Assembly: GCA_018475625.1 (NCBI GenBank)
Contig: JAAKEZ010000002.1
Coordinates: 1-64,000 of the forward strand
Direction of reading: 5' to 3'
From: Candidatus Bathyarchaeota archaeon A05DMB-2
GTDB lineage: Archaea; Thermoproteota; Bathyarchaeia; Bathyarchaeales; Bathycorpusculaceae
Length of the DNA stretch: 64,000 nucleotides
Below the pieces are notes generated by a model, which did not search any database, had not been told where the DNA came from, and saw only the letters and a program-made list of their open reading frames with translations. The position numbers and the translations under genes were made by a program. Below are positions 35,445 to 56,366 of this stretch, one piece after another (the stretch's first letter is position 1; each line of letters begins with the position of its first letter).

Positions 35445-35528
35445 ATGTCAAATCAAGCCGACACTCAAACAAGCTGGCAAATGCGCTTCTTTAGCTTCGG
35501 CTATTACTTTTACTATTATTTTCATTAA
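35445..35528 (+). CDS. Aromatic leader peptide of the aro operon (putative attenuator ORF)
   Basis: A 27-codon ORF ending RFFSFGYYFYYYFH. Between residues 15 and 26, ten of twelve residues are Phe (5) or Tyr (5), and one Trp occurs at residue 11. The TAA stop (35526-35528) is directly followed by the first base of a strong hairpin. The next gene begins an operon that makes Phe and Tyr precursors. Leader peptides rich in the end-product amino acid are the hallmark of ribosome-mediated attenuation in bacteria. The 8-mer CGAAGCTA just before the ATG (35435-35442) is complementary to 35492-35499 inside the ORF. An alternative start at the internal ATG (35481) would leave the aromatic run intact. 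Confidence 0.65.
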   Translation: MSNQADTQTSWQMRFFSFGYYFYYYFH

Positions 35529-35583
35529 GCCCAGAGACTGACAAAAATTTTCAAGTTTCTGGGCGCAAGGGATGGTTGAAAAA
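35529..35583 (+). promoter_or_regulatory. Attenuator-like hairpin between leader peptide and lysC
   Basis: GCCCAGAGAC (35529-35538) pairs with GTTTCTGGGC (35555-35564), ten pairs including one G-T, and TGA/TCA (35539-35541/35551-35553) can extend it past a bulged A. No U-tract follows, so a classic intrinsic terminator is unlikely. A second pairing, TTTTCAA (35548-35554) with TTGAAAA (35577-35583), would loop out the GGGATGG ribosome-binding region just before the lysC ATG. The two pairings could compete or form a pseudoknot. A ribosome at the leader stop codon would cover the 5' arm of the first stem. All pairing was done by hand. Confidence 0.55.
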
Positions 35584-50973: not shown

Positions 50974-51492
50974 TTACTCGTCGATTCTGATTGATTTTAC
51001 TCCGCGGGAGAGCGCTGTTAACCCTGTCCTCGCGAGTTCGATTATCCCGTATGTCCTCATGAGGTTGAGGAACGCGTCCACCTTGTCAGGGGTTCCTGTT
51101 ATCTCGACCATGAGAGACTCCGGTGAAACATCGACGACGCGTCCGCGGAACACCTCGACGCAGTTGATTATGTCACTGCGGCTTTTGACGTCGGGCACGC
51201 TGATTTTCACGAGCGCCAGTTCGCGTGTGACGATGGCGTCAGGTTCTAGCTGGTTGACTTTAATGACATCGATGAGTTTGTTCATTTGCTTAGTGATTTG
51301 TTCGAGGGTTTTTTCGTCGCCGCTGACGGTTATGGTCATGCGTGCCACGCCTTTTTGTTCGGTGTGTCCGACGGTGATGCTTTCGATGTTGTAGCCTCTG
51401 CGTCGGAACATATTGGATACGCTGTGGAGGACGCCTGGTTTGTTTTCGACGAGGGCTGCGATGACGGTGGTTTTCTTGTTTTGGTTTTCCAT
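50974..51492 (-). CDS. ilvN: Acetolactate synthase small (regulatory) subunit
   Basis: 172 residues. ACT domain at residues ~8-80 (VIAALVENKPGVLHSVSNMFRRRGYNIESITVGHTEQKGVARMTITVSGD), then the IlvN C-terminal domain (RELALVKISVPDVKSRSDIINCVEVFRGRVVDVS). It binds valine to inhibit IlvB. The ATG at 51492 has AGGTGA upstream and lies 2 bases after the IlvB stop; a GTG at 51504 is the alternative. Confidence 0.94.
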   Translation of the reverse strand: MENQNKKTTVIAALVENKPGVLHSVSNMFRRRGYNIESITVGHTEQKGVARMTITVSGDEKTLEQITKQMNKLIDVIKVNQLEPDAIVTRELALVKISVPDVKSRSDIINCVEVFRGRVVDVSPESLMVEITGTPDKVDAFLNLMRTYGIIELARTGLTALSRGVKSIRIDE

Positions 51493-51493
51493 T

Positions 51494-53200
51494 TTAGTAG
51501 TCACCTACCTGCTGGTTTAAGCCGCATCCTGGCGGAATCATGGGGACGACGTCTTCTTCCATGCTGATGGGGACGTCGATGACGGTTGTGACTTTGCTTT
51601 TGATGGCGATTTGGACGGCTTTCTGGAATTCAGGGATGGTAGTAACGCGAAAGCCTTGGGCGCCGTAGGATTCGGCGAGTTTGACGAAGTCTGGGTAAGT
51701 GCCCAGTTTGGTAGCGATGTAGCGTCGCTTGTAGAACATGCGTTGCCACTGGGCAACCATGCCGAGGACGCCGTTGTTGAGGACTATGACGGTGACTGGG
51801 ATTTCTTCGATGACGCTGCACGCCAACTCCTGCTCGGTCATGATAAAGCTGCCGTCGCCTGCTATGTCCACCACCACGCGGTCTGGGCAGGCGGTTTTGG
51901 CGCCGATGGCTGCGGGGAATCCGAAACCCATGGTTCCTAAGCCTCCGCTGCTGATGAACGTGCGCGGTTTTAGGGCTTTAAAGTATAGGGCTGCCCACAT
52001 CTGGTTCTGTCCGACTTCGGTGGTGACGATGGCGCTGTCTGGTAACAGTTTCCGCAGAGTTTGCAGTAACGATTTGGGCTTAAATTCCTTGTTTTCGTTT
52101 GGCGGATTCAACTGTGCCCTAGCTTCCTCCAAGCGCTTCATCCACGGGTTATCAGGCTTCCGCTTGGCTTGCTTGATTAAACGCTCATAGATGGCAGCTA
52201 GGGATTTTTTGGCGTCGGCGACTATGGGAATATCAACGTCAATATTTTTGCCGATTTCCGCGGCGTCTATATCGATATGAATCTTTTTAGCTTCGGGACA
52301 GAACGTGTCCAAGTTTCCCGTGGCTCGATCGCTGAAGCGCGTGCCCACCGCAAGCATCACGTCCGCCTCCAACAGCAGCTTGTTGGCAAGTGGATTGCCA
52401 TGCATGCCGATAGTGCCTACGCTCAGTGGATGGATTTCTGGGAAAGCTCCTTTACCCATAAACGTGGTAGCGACCGGAGCCAGCAGCAGCTCCGCCACGG
52501 TTAACAGTTCATCTGCAGCGTTGGCGGATATGACCCCGCCGCCTGCCAAGATTATCGGGCGCTCAGCGTCTGCGAGGCACTCGGCGGCTTTGCGTATCTG
52601 CAGCGGATGAGGGGTGATGGTTGGGTTGTAGCCGCGAATGTCTATGTGGCTGGTGAATTCGACGTTGGCAGTATCTGTCTGTATGTTTTTTGGGAAGTCA
52701 ATGAGGACTGGCCCTGGTCTTCCAGTGGTGGCAATGTAGAAGGCGGTGCTTATGGTTTTTGGGATTTCTGCGACTGAACTTAGCTGACAGTTGTACTTGG
52801 TGATTGGTGTTGTGATGCCTATGATGTCTGCTTCTTGGAAGGCGTCGCGCCCTATCATGTAACTGGAGTTTTTGGCTACGCTGGGAACCTGCCCTGTTAA
52901 CGCTATAATGGGCGAAGAGTCCATGTATGCGTTAGCTATGCCCGTTACTAGGTTCGTTGCGCCTGGTCCGCTGGTGGCGAAGCACACGCCAGGTCGTCCA
53001 GACGCTCGTGCGTAGCCGTCGGCTGCGTGGGCTGCCCCTTGCTCATGGCGCGCGAGTATATGCCTTATTCCTGAGTGGGTGCATAGTGCATCATAGACTG
53101 GCAGTATTGCTCCGCCTAGGATGCCGAAGACATGTTTGACTCCTTGTCGTTCAAGGGATTCTAGTAGCGCGTTTGCGCCGTTCATTTTCGCTGTTGCCAT
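51494..53200 (-). CDS. ilvB: Acetolactate synthase large (catalytic) subunit
   Basis: 568 residues. ThDP enzyme: catalytic Glu in RHEQGAAHAADGYARASGRPGV, central FAD-binding-like domain with PHPLQIRKAAECLADAERPIILAGGG, and the ThDP/Mg2+ motif GDGSFIMTEQELACSVIEEIPVTVIVLNN. It forms acetolactate or acetohydroxybutyrate, the first step of Val/Leu/Ile synthesis. First gene of a seven-gene operon with a long 5' leader. ATG preceded by AAGGAGCATAAGG. Confidence 0.96.
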   Translation of the reverse strand: MATAKMNGANALLESLERQGVKHVFGILGGAILPVYDALCTHSGIRHILARHEQGAAHAADGYARASGRPGVCFATSGPGATNLVTGIANAYMDSSPIIALTGQVPSVAKNSSYMIGRDAFQEADIIGITTPITKYNCQLSSVAEIPKTISTAFYIATTGRPGPVLIDFPKNIQTDTANVEFTSHIDIRGYNPTITPHPLQIRKAAECLADAERPIILAGGGVISANAADELLTVAELLLAPVATTFMGKGAFPEIHPLSVGTIGMHGNPLANKLLLEADVMLAVGTRFSDRATGNLDTFCPEAKKIHIDIDAAEIGKNIDVDIPIVADAKKSLAAIYERLIKQAKRKPDNPWMKRLEEARAQLNPPNENKEFKPKSLLQTLRKLLPDSAIVTTEVGQNQMWAALYFKALKPRTFISSGGLGTMGFGFPAAIGAKTACPDRVVVDIAGDGSFIMTEQELACSVIEEIPVTVIVLNNGVLGMVAQWQRMFYKRRYIATKLGTYPDFVKLAESYGAQGFRVTTIPEFQKAVQIAIKSKVTTVIDVPISMEEDVVPMIPPGCGLNQQVGDY

Positions 53201-53300
53201 TTTATTCCTTATGCTCCTTTATTGTTGGAAAATGACTTGGCACGTACCGTGAGTGATTAACGCTCGAGAATTTATTTCTAACTGTCACGGCGGCTTCAGA

Positions 53301-53345
53301 GTTGGGACTAAATAAAACAGTCTGTCGGTACCCGACAATCCCAAC
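53301..53345 (-). promoter_or_regulatory. Structured 5' leader of the ilv-leu operon
   Basis: On the minus strand GTTGGGA (53345-53339) pairs with TCCCAAC (53307-53301), seven pairs, enclosing a second hairpin TGTCGG/CCGACA (53337-53332 / 53328-53323) with a 3-base loop. Upstream, CGTGA/TCACG (53382-53386/53391-53395) is another small stem. The sequence CACGTACCGT occurs twice (53231-53240 and 53392-53401). The ~255-base leader is unusually long for an archaeal mRNA. Confidence 0.5.
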
Positions 53346-53431
53346 TATTGAGGTGACGATCCCTCATTCTTAATTTGCCTCCGTGAAACCTCACGTACCG
53401 TAAAGGATACACCCTGTACAAATAAAAACAT
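53345..53431 (-). CDS. Possible leader ORF of the ilv-leu operon
   Basis: A 28-codon frame begins MFLFVQGVSFTVREV; the first 15 residues include four Val and one Leu. Its TAG stop overlaps the first base of the 7-bp stem at 53345, the same layout as the aro leader. Branched-chain residues are only mildly enriched and no clear ribosome-binding site was seen, so this is a weak call. Confidence 0.25.
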   Translation of the reverse strand: MFLFVQGVSFTVREVSRRQIKNEGSSPQ

Positions 53432-53481
53432 TACGGTGTCCAAATCTTTGTTTTCAAACTCCGAATTCCCTTCATTCATTC

Positions 53482-53517
53482 CTTATATAGGGGAAGGGGT
53501 ATCTGCCTAGGCAGATA
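53482..53517 (-). promoter_or_regulatory. ilv-leu promoter with an 18-bp palindromic operator
   Basis: On the minus strand CCTATATAAGG (TATA at 53482-53489) predicts transcription start near 53456. Ten bases upstream of the TATA box is the perfect 18-bp palindrome TATCTGCCTAGGCAGATA (53500-53517), located where archaeal Lrp-type activators usually bind. The palindrome is certain; its role is inferred. Confidence 0.65.
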
Positions 53518-53672: not shown

Positions 53673-56366
53673 CTAACCCAGGAATCTTTCCAGCTTCGTC
53701 AAGCCAATGATTTCGTCAAAACTCAAACCCAACGCATCCAAAACCTGGTCAAACGTGCTGTGGAGATAAGCGATGTATTTGTCCACGTCAACCTCGTTCT
53801 TCATGGCTAACTCAACAGGCTTCACATGAGGCTCCCTCATTGTCTTCACGAAGCTTATCAAGTCTCCTGCTCTTATCTCAATCCCGCTTTCTTCCAGCAT
53901 CTTCGCGGCTTTAACGTGCTGCGGCGTAGTTTTCGTGTAACGGTGCAAATCATCTCCCAAAACCACGTGAAACGCAAGCTCATCCATGTTTTGCCATTCT
54001 CTTCTTTTCAGCAGCGTGTAACGTTCGCGAACAATGCTAGCGATATCTTTCTTCGCCGCTTCGAAATCCGCGGGATTCTTCACCCGCGCTAAACGTTCCT
54101 TCATCTGGTTAAACGCGTTCTTTATGAAAATGGGCACATGCTTTTTCTTACCCGTTAACCCCTTCACGTCAACGGTGCCATCCTCCAAAACTCCCAGATA
54201 ATTCTTCTTGCGGCTGCTGAAAACTGCGTAACGGTAAATTTTCTCCATGTCAATGCTCATCTTCAGCTCATGCTCGGTCCAGCGAACCAACTCTTCAACT
54301 TGCTCTTTCGACGGGTTCTTGAGGAAAAGGCTGTCCGTGTCTCCGTAAAGAACCTGAATGCCCAGTTGCTCAGCGCGACCAAGTATCTGGGTGATACTGT
54401 GCCTTCCAATGGCTGCCGTGGCTTCTGCGACTGGTGGGCAGTACAGGTCAAAGCTGTCGGCGCCGAACACGCCGTAACTCGCATTCAAAATAACCTTCAA
54501 CGCGCCTTGCGTGATTTTGTACCAGCTTCTGAGTTCAGCGGGCAACGCTTTGTCCTTGGCTTTCAGCTTGTACCACCGCACACGCAAATCCCTCAGCGAA
54601 CCAATCAGCAAGCTTTCTAACGCGCGTTCGCGGGTGCAGACCCAGTGGGTGGTTCCCGGCACGATGTTGCTTCGGCATTCGGGATGCGGGCAAAGTACGG
54701 ATTGGTAGCCGAGGTTCCACACTTTTATTATAGATGGGTACAGGCTTGGGAAATCCATGACGGCAACGTTGAAGTGCACGCCAGGTGTGGGTTCGACGAC
54801 TATTGCGCCTTTGTATTTTTTTCCTTTTATGATGGCTGTAGTTGTGGTTTTTCCCTTTTGCGCAAGTATATCCTCTGGGTTCGGGATGAGCATGTTTTTT
54901 TTGCGGTGTTCACGGTGCATGAAGTTGCGTATCCAGCGGCTTACGCCTTGACGGCTTACGTCTTCCATGGGCATGCTGCTGATTCGTGCCAAGACCAAAA
55001 TCAGCTTCATAGCTAACTCGTCCTCAGCACTGGTGAGTTTGAAGGTGATTTCTGAGTCTCTGAGGCAGTACTTGGCAAGTTCAGTGTAAGTTAGGTCTCC
55101 GAAGGCTTTCTCCAGTTTGATTTTTTCCACGCCGATAATAGCGCTACCAACGTCGTCCAGCGTCACGTCGCGGTAGCGGTTGCTGAAGGCGTAAATCTGG
55201 ATGGAACGGTTGAAGAAGAACTTGTACAGGTCGATATGGACTCCGTATCTTAGCAAGCACACGCGTCTGCCGACTTCTATGGGAATCTCGTTTCTTCGCA
55301 TACCGAGATTCAATGCGCGGTGCGTCAGGTAGCGCAGGTCAAAGTCATCGCCGTTAAACGTGATGACAAAGGGGTATTCCCAGAGCACTTCGAAGACGGC
55401 TTTGAGCAGTTTCTCTTCCGTATCATAATATTCGAGCTTCACGTCTGCTGGCAAGTGTTCGTTTCCTTCGCGGACACCTTCACGTTTGAGGAGCATCACT
55501 TTTTTCTGGTTGTCTGAGGTGTACACGGAGATGCAGATGACTGGGTATGCGGCTTCGCGTGGGTCTGGTACTCGTGTGGATATGGGCGCGTAAACTTCGA
55601 TGTCTATGGCTGCTCGGCGAAATTTGGGTGCTGGATACTCGAGCAGTCTTGCCCATTCTGTGAGATATTCGAGTTCTTTCGGAGTTGCTTCTGAGAAGGT
55701 GGTTTTCATTTGCTCAATGGTTTTTTCTGTTTCCGCTAGTATCGTGGGTGTTAGGTTTCCGTTTTTTACTTCGAAAATCATTCCTGGAAGGAATTGTTTG
55801 TCGTAGATGTAGCATTGGTAATATTTTATTCTAGCTTCCCAAACCTTAGCTTCTTCAACGCTTGCCATCGACGGCGAGATTTTGGGGAAATCTTCTGGAA
55901 TGATGTCGCGTATGGTGCCTTGGGGTTTGCCGCCGATGGCTAAAGGGTCATTTGCCACGATTTTTGTGACTTGCATTTTCCTGTCAAGCAGCGGGTTAAA
56001 TTTCACTGCCGTTTCAAGGTGGTCAAAGCCTGGATGAGTCATGAGTCGCTCAATTTTCTTCAGCTCGTACTCTGACAAGTTGGTGAGGCAGTAGGGCTTA
56101 TGCCCAGTGTTGTCGTACCAGAAGTAAATGTTGCCGCTTTCCGGCTCATACAGCTTGATTACAGCTTTTCTTTGGCGTCCCTCATAGCCTGCGGAAACAA
56201 AGTAAGATGGCGGCAAGTTCTCGGGAGCGACAGGTGGAAAAACGCGGCGTTGCCGTTCTCTTTTCTCCTGCTCGTTAATGGCGGTCGGCGGCGTTTCCGA
56301 TTTGGCCTCTGCTTTGACAGTTTTTTCAGGCGGTTGAGAGTAAAGGTCTAAGCTTTGCTGCGCCAT
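53673..56366 (-). CDS. polB: Family B DNA polymerase
   Basis: 897 residues. Exonuclease domain: Exo I RAAIDIEVYAP (~255), Exo II VITFNGDDFDLRYL (~335), Exo III KYCLRDSEIT (~440). Polymerase domain: motif A VMDFPSLYPSI (~545), motif B KVILNASYGVFGAD (~645), motif C YGDTDSLFL (~705); all catalytic Asp residues present. A cysteine group (CPHPECRS and a following C) lies after motif A. The N-terminus QQSLDLYS resembles a PCNA-interacting QxxLxxY motif. Residues 1-45 are otherwise disordered-looking. Single continuous frame, no intein. Confidence 0.95.
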   Translation of the reverse strand: MAQQSLDLYSQPPEKTVKAEAKSETPPTAINEQEKRERQRRVFPPVAPENLPPSYFVSAGYEGRQRKAVIKLYEPESGNIYFWYDNTGHKPYCLTNLSEYELKKIERLMTHPGFDHLETAVKFNPLLDRKMQVTKIVANDPLAIGGKPQGTIRDIIPEDFPKISPSMASVEEAKVWEARIKYYQCYIYDKQFLPGMIFEVKNGNLTPTILAETEKTIEQMKTTFSEATPKELEYLTEWARLLEYPAPKFRRAAIDIEVYAPISTRVPDPREAAYPVICISVYTSDNQKKVMLLKREGVREGNEHLPADVKLEYYDTEEKLLKAVFEVLWEYPFVITFNGDDFDLRYLTHRALNLGMRRNEIPIEVGRRVCLLRYGVHIDLYKFFFNRSIQIYAFSNRYRDVTLDDVGSAIIGVEKIKLEKAFGDLTYTELAKYCLRDSEITFKLTSAEDELAMKLILVLARISSMPMEDVSRQGVSRWIRNFMHREHRKKNMLIPNPEDILAQKGKTTTTAIIKGKKYKGAIVVEPTPGVHFNVAVMDFPSLYPSIIKVWNLGYQSVLCPHPECRSNIVPGTTHWVCTRERALESLLIGSLRDLRVRWYKLKAKDKALPAELRSWYKITQGALKVILNASYGVFGADSFDLYCPPVAEATAAIGRHSITQILGRAEQLGIQVLYGDTDSLFLKNPSKEQVEELVRWTEHELKMSIDMEKIYRYAVFSSRKKNYLGVLEDGTVDVKGLTGKKKHVPIFIKNAFNQMKERLARVKNPADFEAAKKDIASIVRERYTLLKRREWQNMDELAFHVVLGDDLHRYTKTTPQHVKAAKMLEESGIEIRAGDLISFVKTMREPHVKPVELAMKNEVDVDKYIAYLHSTFDQVLDALGLSFDEIIGLTKLERFLG

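Follow-up and report, generated by a model that had tools for sequence, protein, structure and literature searches.

The bacterial prfB gene, which encodes release factor 2 (RF2), is autoregulated by +1 slippage: a slow codon in the ribosomal A site triggers the slip, a purine-rich stretch resembling a Shine-Dalgarno (SD) sequence lies just upstream, and the gene product relieves the shortage. Frameshifting is also on record in leader open reading frames (ORFs). Passages of a 2016 review (PMC5009743) describe how ketolide-induced frameshifting in ermCL takes ribosomes into the spacer and switches on ermC, with the shifted ribosome unfolding the mRNA, and how frameshifting at the last codon before the stop of the Escherichia coli pheL leader was judged incidental to attenuation. 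The same passages recount the hungry-codon frameshifting of Gallant, in which shortage of one aminoacyl-tRNA leads to single-base slippage in starved E. coli; report that trans-frame proteins with a starvation-specific function have no known examples; and mention a likely +1 event for a virus of haloarchaea. In archaea, programmed -1 frameshifting in fucA1 of Saccharolobus solfataricus is given as the only reported case, other events being hypothesised, in the relevant part of a 2021 review (PMC8211752). As these reviews date from 2016 and 2021, later work may exist. For ilvB itself, PMC11857589 places an attenuator, modelled as alternative hairpins, in the leader before ilvB of the Corynebacterium glutamicum ilvBNC operon.

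The ilvB leader and its mini-ORF

The DNA analysed (the window, 64,000 nucleotides) comes from Candidatus Bathyarchaeota archaeon A05DMB-2. On its minus strand, where all features of the ilvB leader given below also lie, ilvB (acetolactate synthase large subunit, 51494-53200; TIGR00118, 765 bits against a cut-off of 538) is the first gene of an ilvB-ilvN-leuCDBA-like run and is overlapped by ilvN (small subunit, 50974-51504, minus strand; TIGR00119, 213 bits against a cut-off of 57). These two genes and the 2-isopropylmalate synthase gene were called by family, and the genes between ilvN and leuA were read by eye. Also read by eye was the upstream neighbour of ilvB, a family B DNA polymerase gene ending at 53673, which leaves a gap of 472 nt. 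The closest named relatives of the A05DMB-2 IlvB protein come mostly from Candidatus Bathyarchaeota metagenome-assembled genomes (MAGs). The SD sequence of ilvB, AAGGAG (53214-53219), is predicted to be accessible.

A sequence-only reading of this region had described a structured leader of about 255 bases, with a nested stem, a duplicated element and a 28-codon frame whose stop codon abuts the outer stem. The stem is present as described, GTTGGGA (53345-53339) facing TCCCAAC (53307-53301) around TGTCGG (53337-53332) and CCGACA (53328-53323), and the 256-nt leader folds slightly better than its dinucleotide shuffles (z = -1.84; 9 of 200 shuffles equal it). Both copies of the duplicated CACGTACCGT exist (53241-53250 and 53392-53401), but the second was seen only in the genus, being exact in G000 (A05DMB-2) and changed at one position in G034 in alignment A1. 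The 28-codon frame (MFLFVQ...SPQ*, 53345-53431) exists too, from a start at 53431 to a TAG at 53347-53345, but we judge it non-functional. It begins inside a TATA-like box, its ATG belonging to GTAATGTTTTTATTTG; many relatives have AAACTTTTTAT at that place and, as read by eye, the ATG was not seen there outside the genus. The stop codon relevant to the stem is a different one, the TAG at 53310-53308 of a shorter ORF, beside the 3′ arm.

This mini-ORF, MRDRHLNSWDCRVPTDCFI, starts with an ATG at 53367-53365 (53308-53367 in all) and encodes 19 residues, among them one Leu, one Val and one Ile; the nested stem (53301-53345) lies in its 3′ half and abuts its stop codon. An SD match, GGAGG, precedes it at 53378-53382, and a predicted BRE/TATA region, ACCGTAATGTTTTTATT (53421-53437), overlaps the MFLF start of the 28-codon frame. 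Both signals recur in relatives: GGAGG, GAGG, GGAG, GGGGG or GGTG stands before the mini-ORF in 75 of 77 leaders (with a spacing of 7 nt in 41 of these), and a TATA-like hexamer lies 46-66 nt upstream of its start in 71 of 75. Judging by the hexamer, transcription probably starts near 53400, which would make the leader about 200 nt long. Upstream from this promoter is a perfect 16-bp palindrome, ATCTGCCTAGGCAGAT (53501-53516), possibly an operator, adjoined by a second TATA-like stretch (53490-53483). Still within the region upstream of ilvB, the segment 53525-53636 is 71% similar to a stretch of the same genome (L002, 1501-1605) that lies upstream of an apparent ribosomal protein gene after argS.

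Relatives confirm that ilvB is preceded by a genuine, conserved leader. A DNA search matched it in 38 of the 162 genomes of the order (its own counted), and ilvB was found downstream in each of the 19 loci examined among the 37 matches from other genomes, so the lack of conservation that would have counted against the sequence-only reading was not observed. The genomes compared are uncultured and mostly MAG-like. By protein search, ilvB is present in 87 of the 162, and 85 upstream regions were examined, leaving out G007 (truncated) and G014. An equivalent mini-ORF, starting with [AG]TG and 7-23 codons long to its stop, was found in 77 of the 85, the next codon being AGG in 76. The encoded peptides are of type A (for example MRDRHLNSWDRRVLIL; 38 genomes including A05DMB-2), type B (MRDRHLCAVFVRRFVQATL; 7 genomes), type C (MRDRILKQVHFL; 3 genomes), type D (MRDSRVRRNRFLPK; 21 genomes) or type E (MRDHFLVH; 6 genomes), and two further leaders are of another type. 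The other eight regions have, in place of the mini-ORF, a LeuA-type frame directly upstream that ends at ilvB; it is at least 230 residues long in seven and shortened to 143 in G026.

Repeated units ending in branched-chain codons

The mini-ORFs hold one or two in-frame units, each consisting of xGG-NAY-YGY-NNN, or something close to it, with a fifth codon for Leu, Val or Ile. Unit 1 of the A05DMB-2 leader is AGG-GAT-CGT-CAC-CTC (53350-53364), with the Leu codon CTC at 53352-53350 as the proposed sensor; unit 2 is TGG-GAT-TGT-CGG-GTA (53329-53343), with the Val codon GTA at 53331-53329 as the proposed second sensor. Across 24 ORFs of the window no Val codon is rarer than GTA (15%). First units were found in 73 of the 77 leaders, and the fifth codon is branched-chain in all 73, as it is in all 54 second units. 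When units were chosen by in-frame xGG-NAY alone, 127 of 127 in the order ended in a Leu, Val or Ile codon. Since the units had been spotted in these sequences before they were counted, and the genomes are related, the control carries more weight than this raw figure: the same selection in the ilvB coding sequence of 30 genomes returned a branched-chain fifth codon in 3 of 34 cases. Outside the order, 54 of 55 xGG-NAY units have a branched-chain fifth codon.

The codons of the unit are fixed beyond what a protein would need. Arg is AGG and Asp is GAT in 30 of 30 cases each in the leaders, whereas at invariant residues of ilvB the commonest codon reaches a fraction of 0.44 for Arg and 0.68 for Asp; Val is encoded by GTA despite the rarity of this codon in the window. 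Such nucleotide constraint, and a UGAGG/CCUCA hairpin with four pairs that are invariant and hence uninformative, could speak for a metabolite-binding riboswitch, as the sequence-only reading had entertained, or for a protein-binding RNA, the ORF being incidental. However, the units keep their codon register (97 of 97 occurrences of GGNAYYGY in leaders of the order), their Leu, Val or Ile end codon changes with the downstream gene (see below), and no Rfam family was matched: the window's only match to Rfam 15 at gathering score, riboswitches included, is a tRNA elsewhere, and the best hit in the leader is SNORD65 (E = 2; score 14.4 against 41). We regard an RNA element of this kind as very unlikely. 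A T-box was set aside by inspection.

The choice of end codon varies. Two leaders of the order (MRDRFLR and MRDRFLNRHR) are without Val. In the five genomes that were read out of seven with two ilvB matches, one copy is preceded by Ile-containing units without Leu (Ile only or Val and Ile) and the other by Val and Leu. Mini-ORFs may also follow one another: in one family, 19 of 22 consecutive pairs abut exactly, one pair overlaps by a base, one is separated by a 3-nt gap and one is nested in a single frame. A unit-like sequence without a start codon, GGGGTATCGC or GGGTACCG, recurs just before the ilvB start in L258 (G243), L252, L253 and L260.

A +1 frame open to the downstream gene

From the first branched-chain codon onward, no stop interrupts the +1 frame until it has come within 25 nt of the ilvB start or passed it, in 77 of 77 leaders. 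By the same test, frame 0 is open in none and the +2 frame in seven. In A05DMB-2 this runway (SIVGIVGYRQ...TIKEHKE, 53202-53351) extends from the Leu codon to a TAA at 53204-53202, just before the ilvB ATG, and in 18 leaders the +1 stop overlaps the ilvB start codon as in ATGA, beginning one base later. In seven close pairs, substitutions in the +1 frame fall 34/48/46 times on codon positions 1/2/3, and 24 codon changes are silent against 75 replacements. The +1 sequence therefore drifts without protein constraint, which indicates that openness is kept, and not a peptide. Of 58 units from the remaining families of the class, 54 are followed by an open +1 frame, none by an open frame 0 and one by an open +2 frame, figures that are not independent as tandem units share one runway; the four exceptions are L214, the first unit of L238, L244 and one probably spurious match in L216. 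The leader of the aro operon, used as a control, is +1-open in 1 of 13 cases.

The +1 ORF might instead be an ordinary second upstream ORF, initiated at a start of its own, whose overlap with the mini-ORF is accidental. Some ATG, GTG or TTG does occur in 51 of the 77 +1 ORFs, and outside the order 16 of 17 Val units of families f21-f27 have a TTG at the shift site (UUU-GUY) when read in +1, compared with none of 26 Ile units and one of 11 Leu units; neither unit of the A05DMB-2 leader has one. Yet in 76 of 77 leaders a stop that overlaps the start codon of the mini-ORF closes the +1 frame, in 26 of 77 the frame is entirely free of ATG, GTG and TTG, and a start before the shift site was found in one of 77. 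The lack of peptide conservation likewise argues against a second upstream ORF, as do LeuA-type frames devoid of a start (below), and we find this explanation very unlikely.

Units are present before other genes as well. Of the 256 genomes of the class, 102 contain the RTGGGGTATYGYTTTRTY pattern; its reverse gave one match among the genomes listed. In 30 of 30 loci examined, ATG-GGG-TAT-YGY-TTT-ATY is followed in the +1 frame by the DTTLRDGEQ-type catalytic motif of a LeuA-type protein. Upstream of the motif, this frame contains no ATG, GTG or TTG in 16 loci and some in 14; it spans at least 344 residues to the end of the locus in 29 of the 30. Nine further LeuA-type loci agree, seven of them having no in-frame start. 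NCBIfam places three of the LeuA-type proteins in a 2-isopropylmalate synthase subfamily and the isopropylmalate/citramalate/homocitrate synthase subfamily; the Ile codon suggests that the protein behind an Ile unit could be a citramalate synthase. The A05DMB-2 genome has a second unit of its own, ATGGGGTATCGCTTTATC (L277, position 1501; G000:C102:74614), which opens a LeuA-type gene in the +1 frame, again with no in-frame start. In G026 (L276 and L175) an Ile unit is followed by a LeuA-type remnant of 114 residues ending at ilvB, which looks like the outcome of an internal deletion leaving a runway, or of an assembly fault.

Val-only units precede the valine-tRNA ligase gene (valS) at eight loci of families f26 and f27, and the +1 frame ends there at the start of the gene or close to it; the ligase was identified by family search above curated cut-offs at three of the eight and by position at the rest. 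The same holds for 8 of 8 further f27 genomes (in all L309, L310, L313, L315-L318, L325 and L338-L345), and none of 12 valS upstream regions outside f27, A05DMB-2 included, contains a branched-chain unit. Given the TTG found at the shift site of nearly all Val units outside the order, a plain TTG start is an alternative for valS. Ile units before LeuA-type genes, Val units before valine-tRNA ligase and the split units of genomes with two ilvB copies point to a sensor codon that follows the product of the downstream gene.

The sequence-only reading was right to see before ilvB a leader ORF that probably senses branched-chain amino acids, in parallel with the aromatic leader of the aro operon. 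It suggested an attenuator, a mechanism that is probably wrong. In a classical ribosome-mediated attenuator, stalling on the Leu or Val codons would decide the fold, hence termination or masking of ilvB, with no frameshift. The conserved Leu and Val codons, the nested stems and the T runs of 5-7 found behind the leader in some type A genomes, where they are scattered, would suit attenuation, as would the presence of classical-looking leaders in the same window and in other genomes. One such leader encodes an aromatic peptide, MSNQADTQTSWQMRFFSFGYYFYYYFH (35447-35570, plus strand; hairpin by eye), before the aspartate kinase/aro operon; its stop codon abuts the hairpin GCCCAGA..TCTGGGC, with a loop that is U-rich in most relatives. 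A DNA query with it matched 33 of 162 genomes in the order, although in two the match was confined to sequence upstream of the ORF; the aromatic ORF was found in 20 of 20 aro loci read. Outside the order, 60 ilvB upstream regions from 55 genomes were read. In 14 of them, from families f11-f15 (L215, L217-L220, L222-L227 and L229-L231), Val, Leu or Ile account for 7-12 of the last 13 residues of a leader peptide, and leader peptides of a few other archaea (L036, L039, L040, L063 and L064) have 8-11 in a 12-residue stretch. Some of these Val/Leu/Ile-rich leaders have a hairpin immediately after the stop. Both kinds of leader, unit-type and Val/Leu/Ile-rich or aromatic, thus occur in the class.

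Several features of the A05DMB-2 leader speak against an attenuator. Regulatory codons do not form a run near its stop, and no regular U-run follows that stop, the longest T run after it being 4. No masking of the ilvB ribosome site is predicted in the window: its opening cost, 0.7 kcal/mol, is unchanged by a ribosome on the leader in all states tested. A ribosome on the leader hardly changes the mean opening cost in types A-C and E; in type D, one at the Val codon raises the mean from 4.9 to 6.2. Related leaders of type A, when aligned, keep the P1 and P2 stems paired in most rows (35-37 of 37 for the outer stem, UGGG/YYYAG, with one-sided changes only), but no two-sided compensatory changes were seen in the P1 and P2 pairs counted. 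Attenuation further leaves unexplained the openness of the +1 frame in every leader and the LeuA-type frames with no in-frame start. All this makes attenuation an unlikely explanation for the ilvB leader.

Two pairings with the region after the mini-ORF stop were tried and rejected. One, involving the ribosome site of the mini-ORF (SD/anti-SD helix), is weak against shuffles individually, with p ≤ 0.05 in 4/37 leaders of type A, 0/7 of B, 1/3 of C, 4/20 of D, 1/6 of E and 0/2 of X; its inner part is paired in 29-35 of 37 rows of alignment A1, through largely invariant bases. The other, involving the start region, reached p ≤ 0.05 in 2/38 (A), 0/7 (B), 1/3 (C), 3/21 (D), 0/6 (E) and 1/2 (X), and in 7/32 outside families. 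A nascent arrest peptide as the sensor became needless once the +1 frame was seen, and may have a role as a stimulator.

Proposed mechanism and comparison with known systems

We consider it likely, judging from these sequence patterns, that the ilvB leader is an amino-acid sensor working by +1 ribosomal frameshifting. We infer the frameshift, its dependence on starvation and the way ilvB is switched on as follows. A ribosome would start on the mini-ORF and meet, after the xGG-NAY-YGY-NNN context, a single Leu codon (codon 6) and, in the A05DMB-2 leader, a second sensor, the Val codon (codon 13). With charged tRNA plentiful, the ribosome would stay in frame 0 and terminate at the end of the 19 codons, with 107 nt still separating it from ilvB. 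Scarcity of charged Leu- or Val-tRNA would leave the A site empty, and the ribosome would slip one base forward at the sensor codon; encountering no +1 stop until the TAA at the end of the runway, it would reach the ilvB start. There it might act through termination-reinitiation coupling, by keeping the nascent mRNA covered so that transcription continues, or both. As the ilvB ribosome site is predicted to be open anyway, coupling would not be needed for unmasking, which favours transcript protection or the mere supply of ribosomes. Where a leader has several units, they would behave as OR inputs, since each of them leads into one shared +1 frame. Against the model, pairing of the slipped P-site tRNA would be poor (CAC to ACC, CGG to GGG), so that an empty A site, or out-of-frame decoding in the A site, would have to drive the slip, and NAY-YGY is conserved more strongly than a spacer requires. 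The four units outside the order that are not +1-open, the two leaders without Val, the LeuA-type loci with some in-frame start, the TTG of the Val units and the valS regions without a unit count against it as well. A GAGG or GGGG stands six bases before the codon that precedes the sensor codon and could make a hypothetical internal SD contact, as in prfB.

More generally, the data are likely to reflect a modular hungry-codon sensor. Its unit, 15 nt long and ending in a codon for Leu, Val or Ile, is placed singly or in tandem before genes for acetolactate synthase, LeuA-type synthases or valine-tRNA ligase. Shortage of the amino acid so specified would cause a +1 slip into a stop-free runway or into the gene itself, tandem units would form OR gates and, in one family, abutting mini-ORFs would feed one runway. 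Among the matches listed, a literature search in which frameshifting was narrowly queried, and whose scope left subscription journals and preprints mostly outside, returned no described example of this amino-acid-sensing element. If true, the model would provide a natural regulatory use of starvation-induced frameshifting, conserved across many genera of archaea, in which each sensor could be re-aimed by a single codon change. It would also explain why some LeuA-type genes seem to lack a start codon.

Each of the systems outlined at the start shares something with this model. As in C. glutamicum ilvBNC, the leader lies before ilvB; here it has single codons and a kept-open +1 frame. With fucA1, in the summary drawn on above, it would share programmed frameshifting in an archaeon; fucA1 differs in shifting by -1 and in having an enzyme split between two ORFs. 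With pheL, as portrayed in the 2016 review passages, the common element would be frameshifting in the leader ORF of an amino acid biosynthesis gene. By the same account, frameshifting within the ermCL leader ORF carries translation on into the spacer and thereby activates the gene behind it, as is proposed for the ilvB leader; ermCL differs in that its signal is an antibiotic, its target a bacterial resistance gene and the effect of its shifted ribosome the unfolding of mRNA, whereas the ilvB leader would respond to an amino acid. Hungry-codon frameshifting, again as those passages present it, likewise arises from shortage of one aminoacyl-tRNA, but was studied in starved E. coli, mainly in laboratory cultures. 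With prfB the proposed device would have in common a slow A-site codon, a purine-rich SD-like stretch upstream and a product that relieves the shortage. The difference is that prfB senses a stop codon through RF2, whereas the archaeal leader would sense Leu, Val or Ile codons, before several genes and often from a leader that runs to the next gene.
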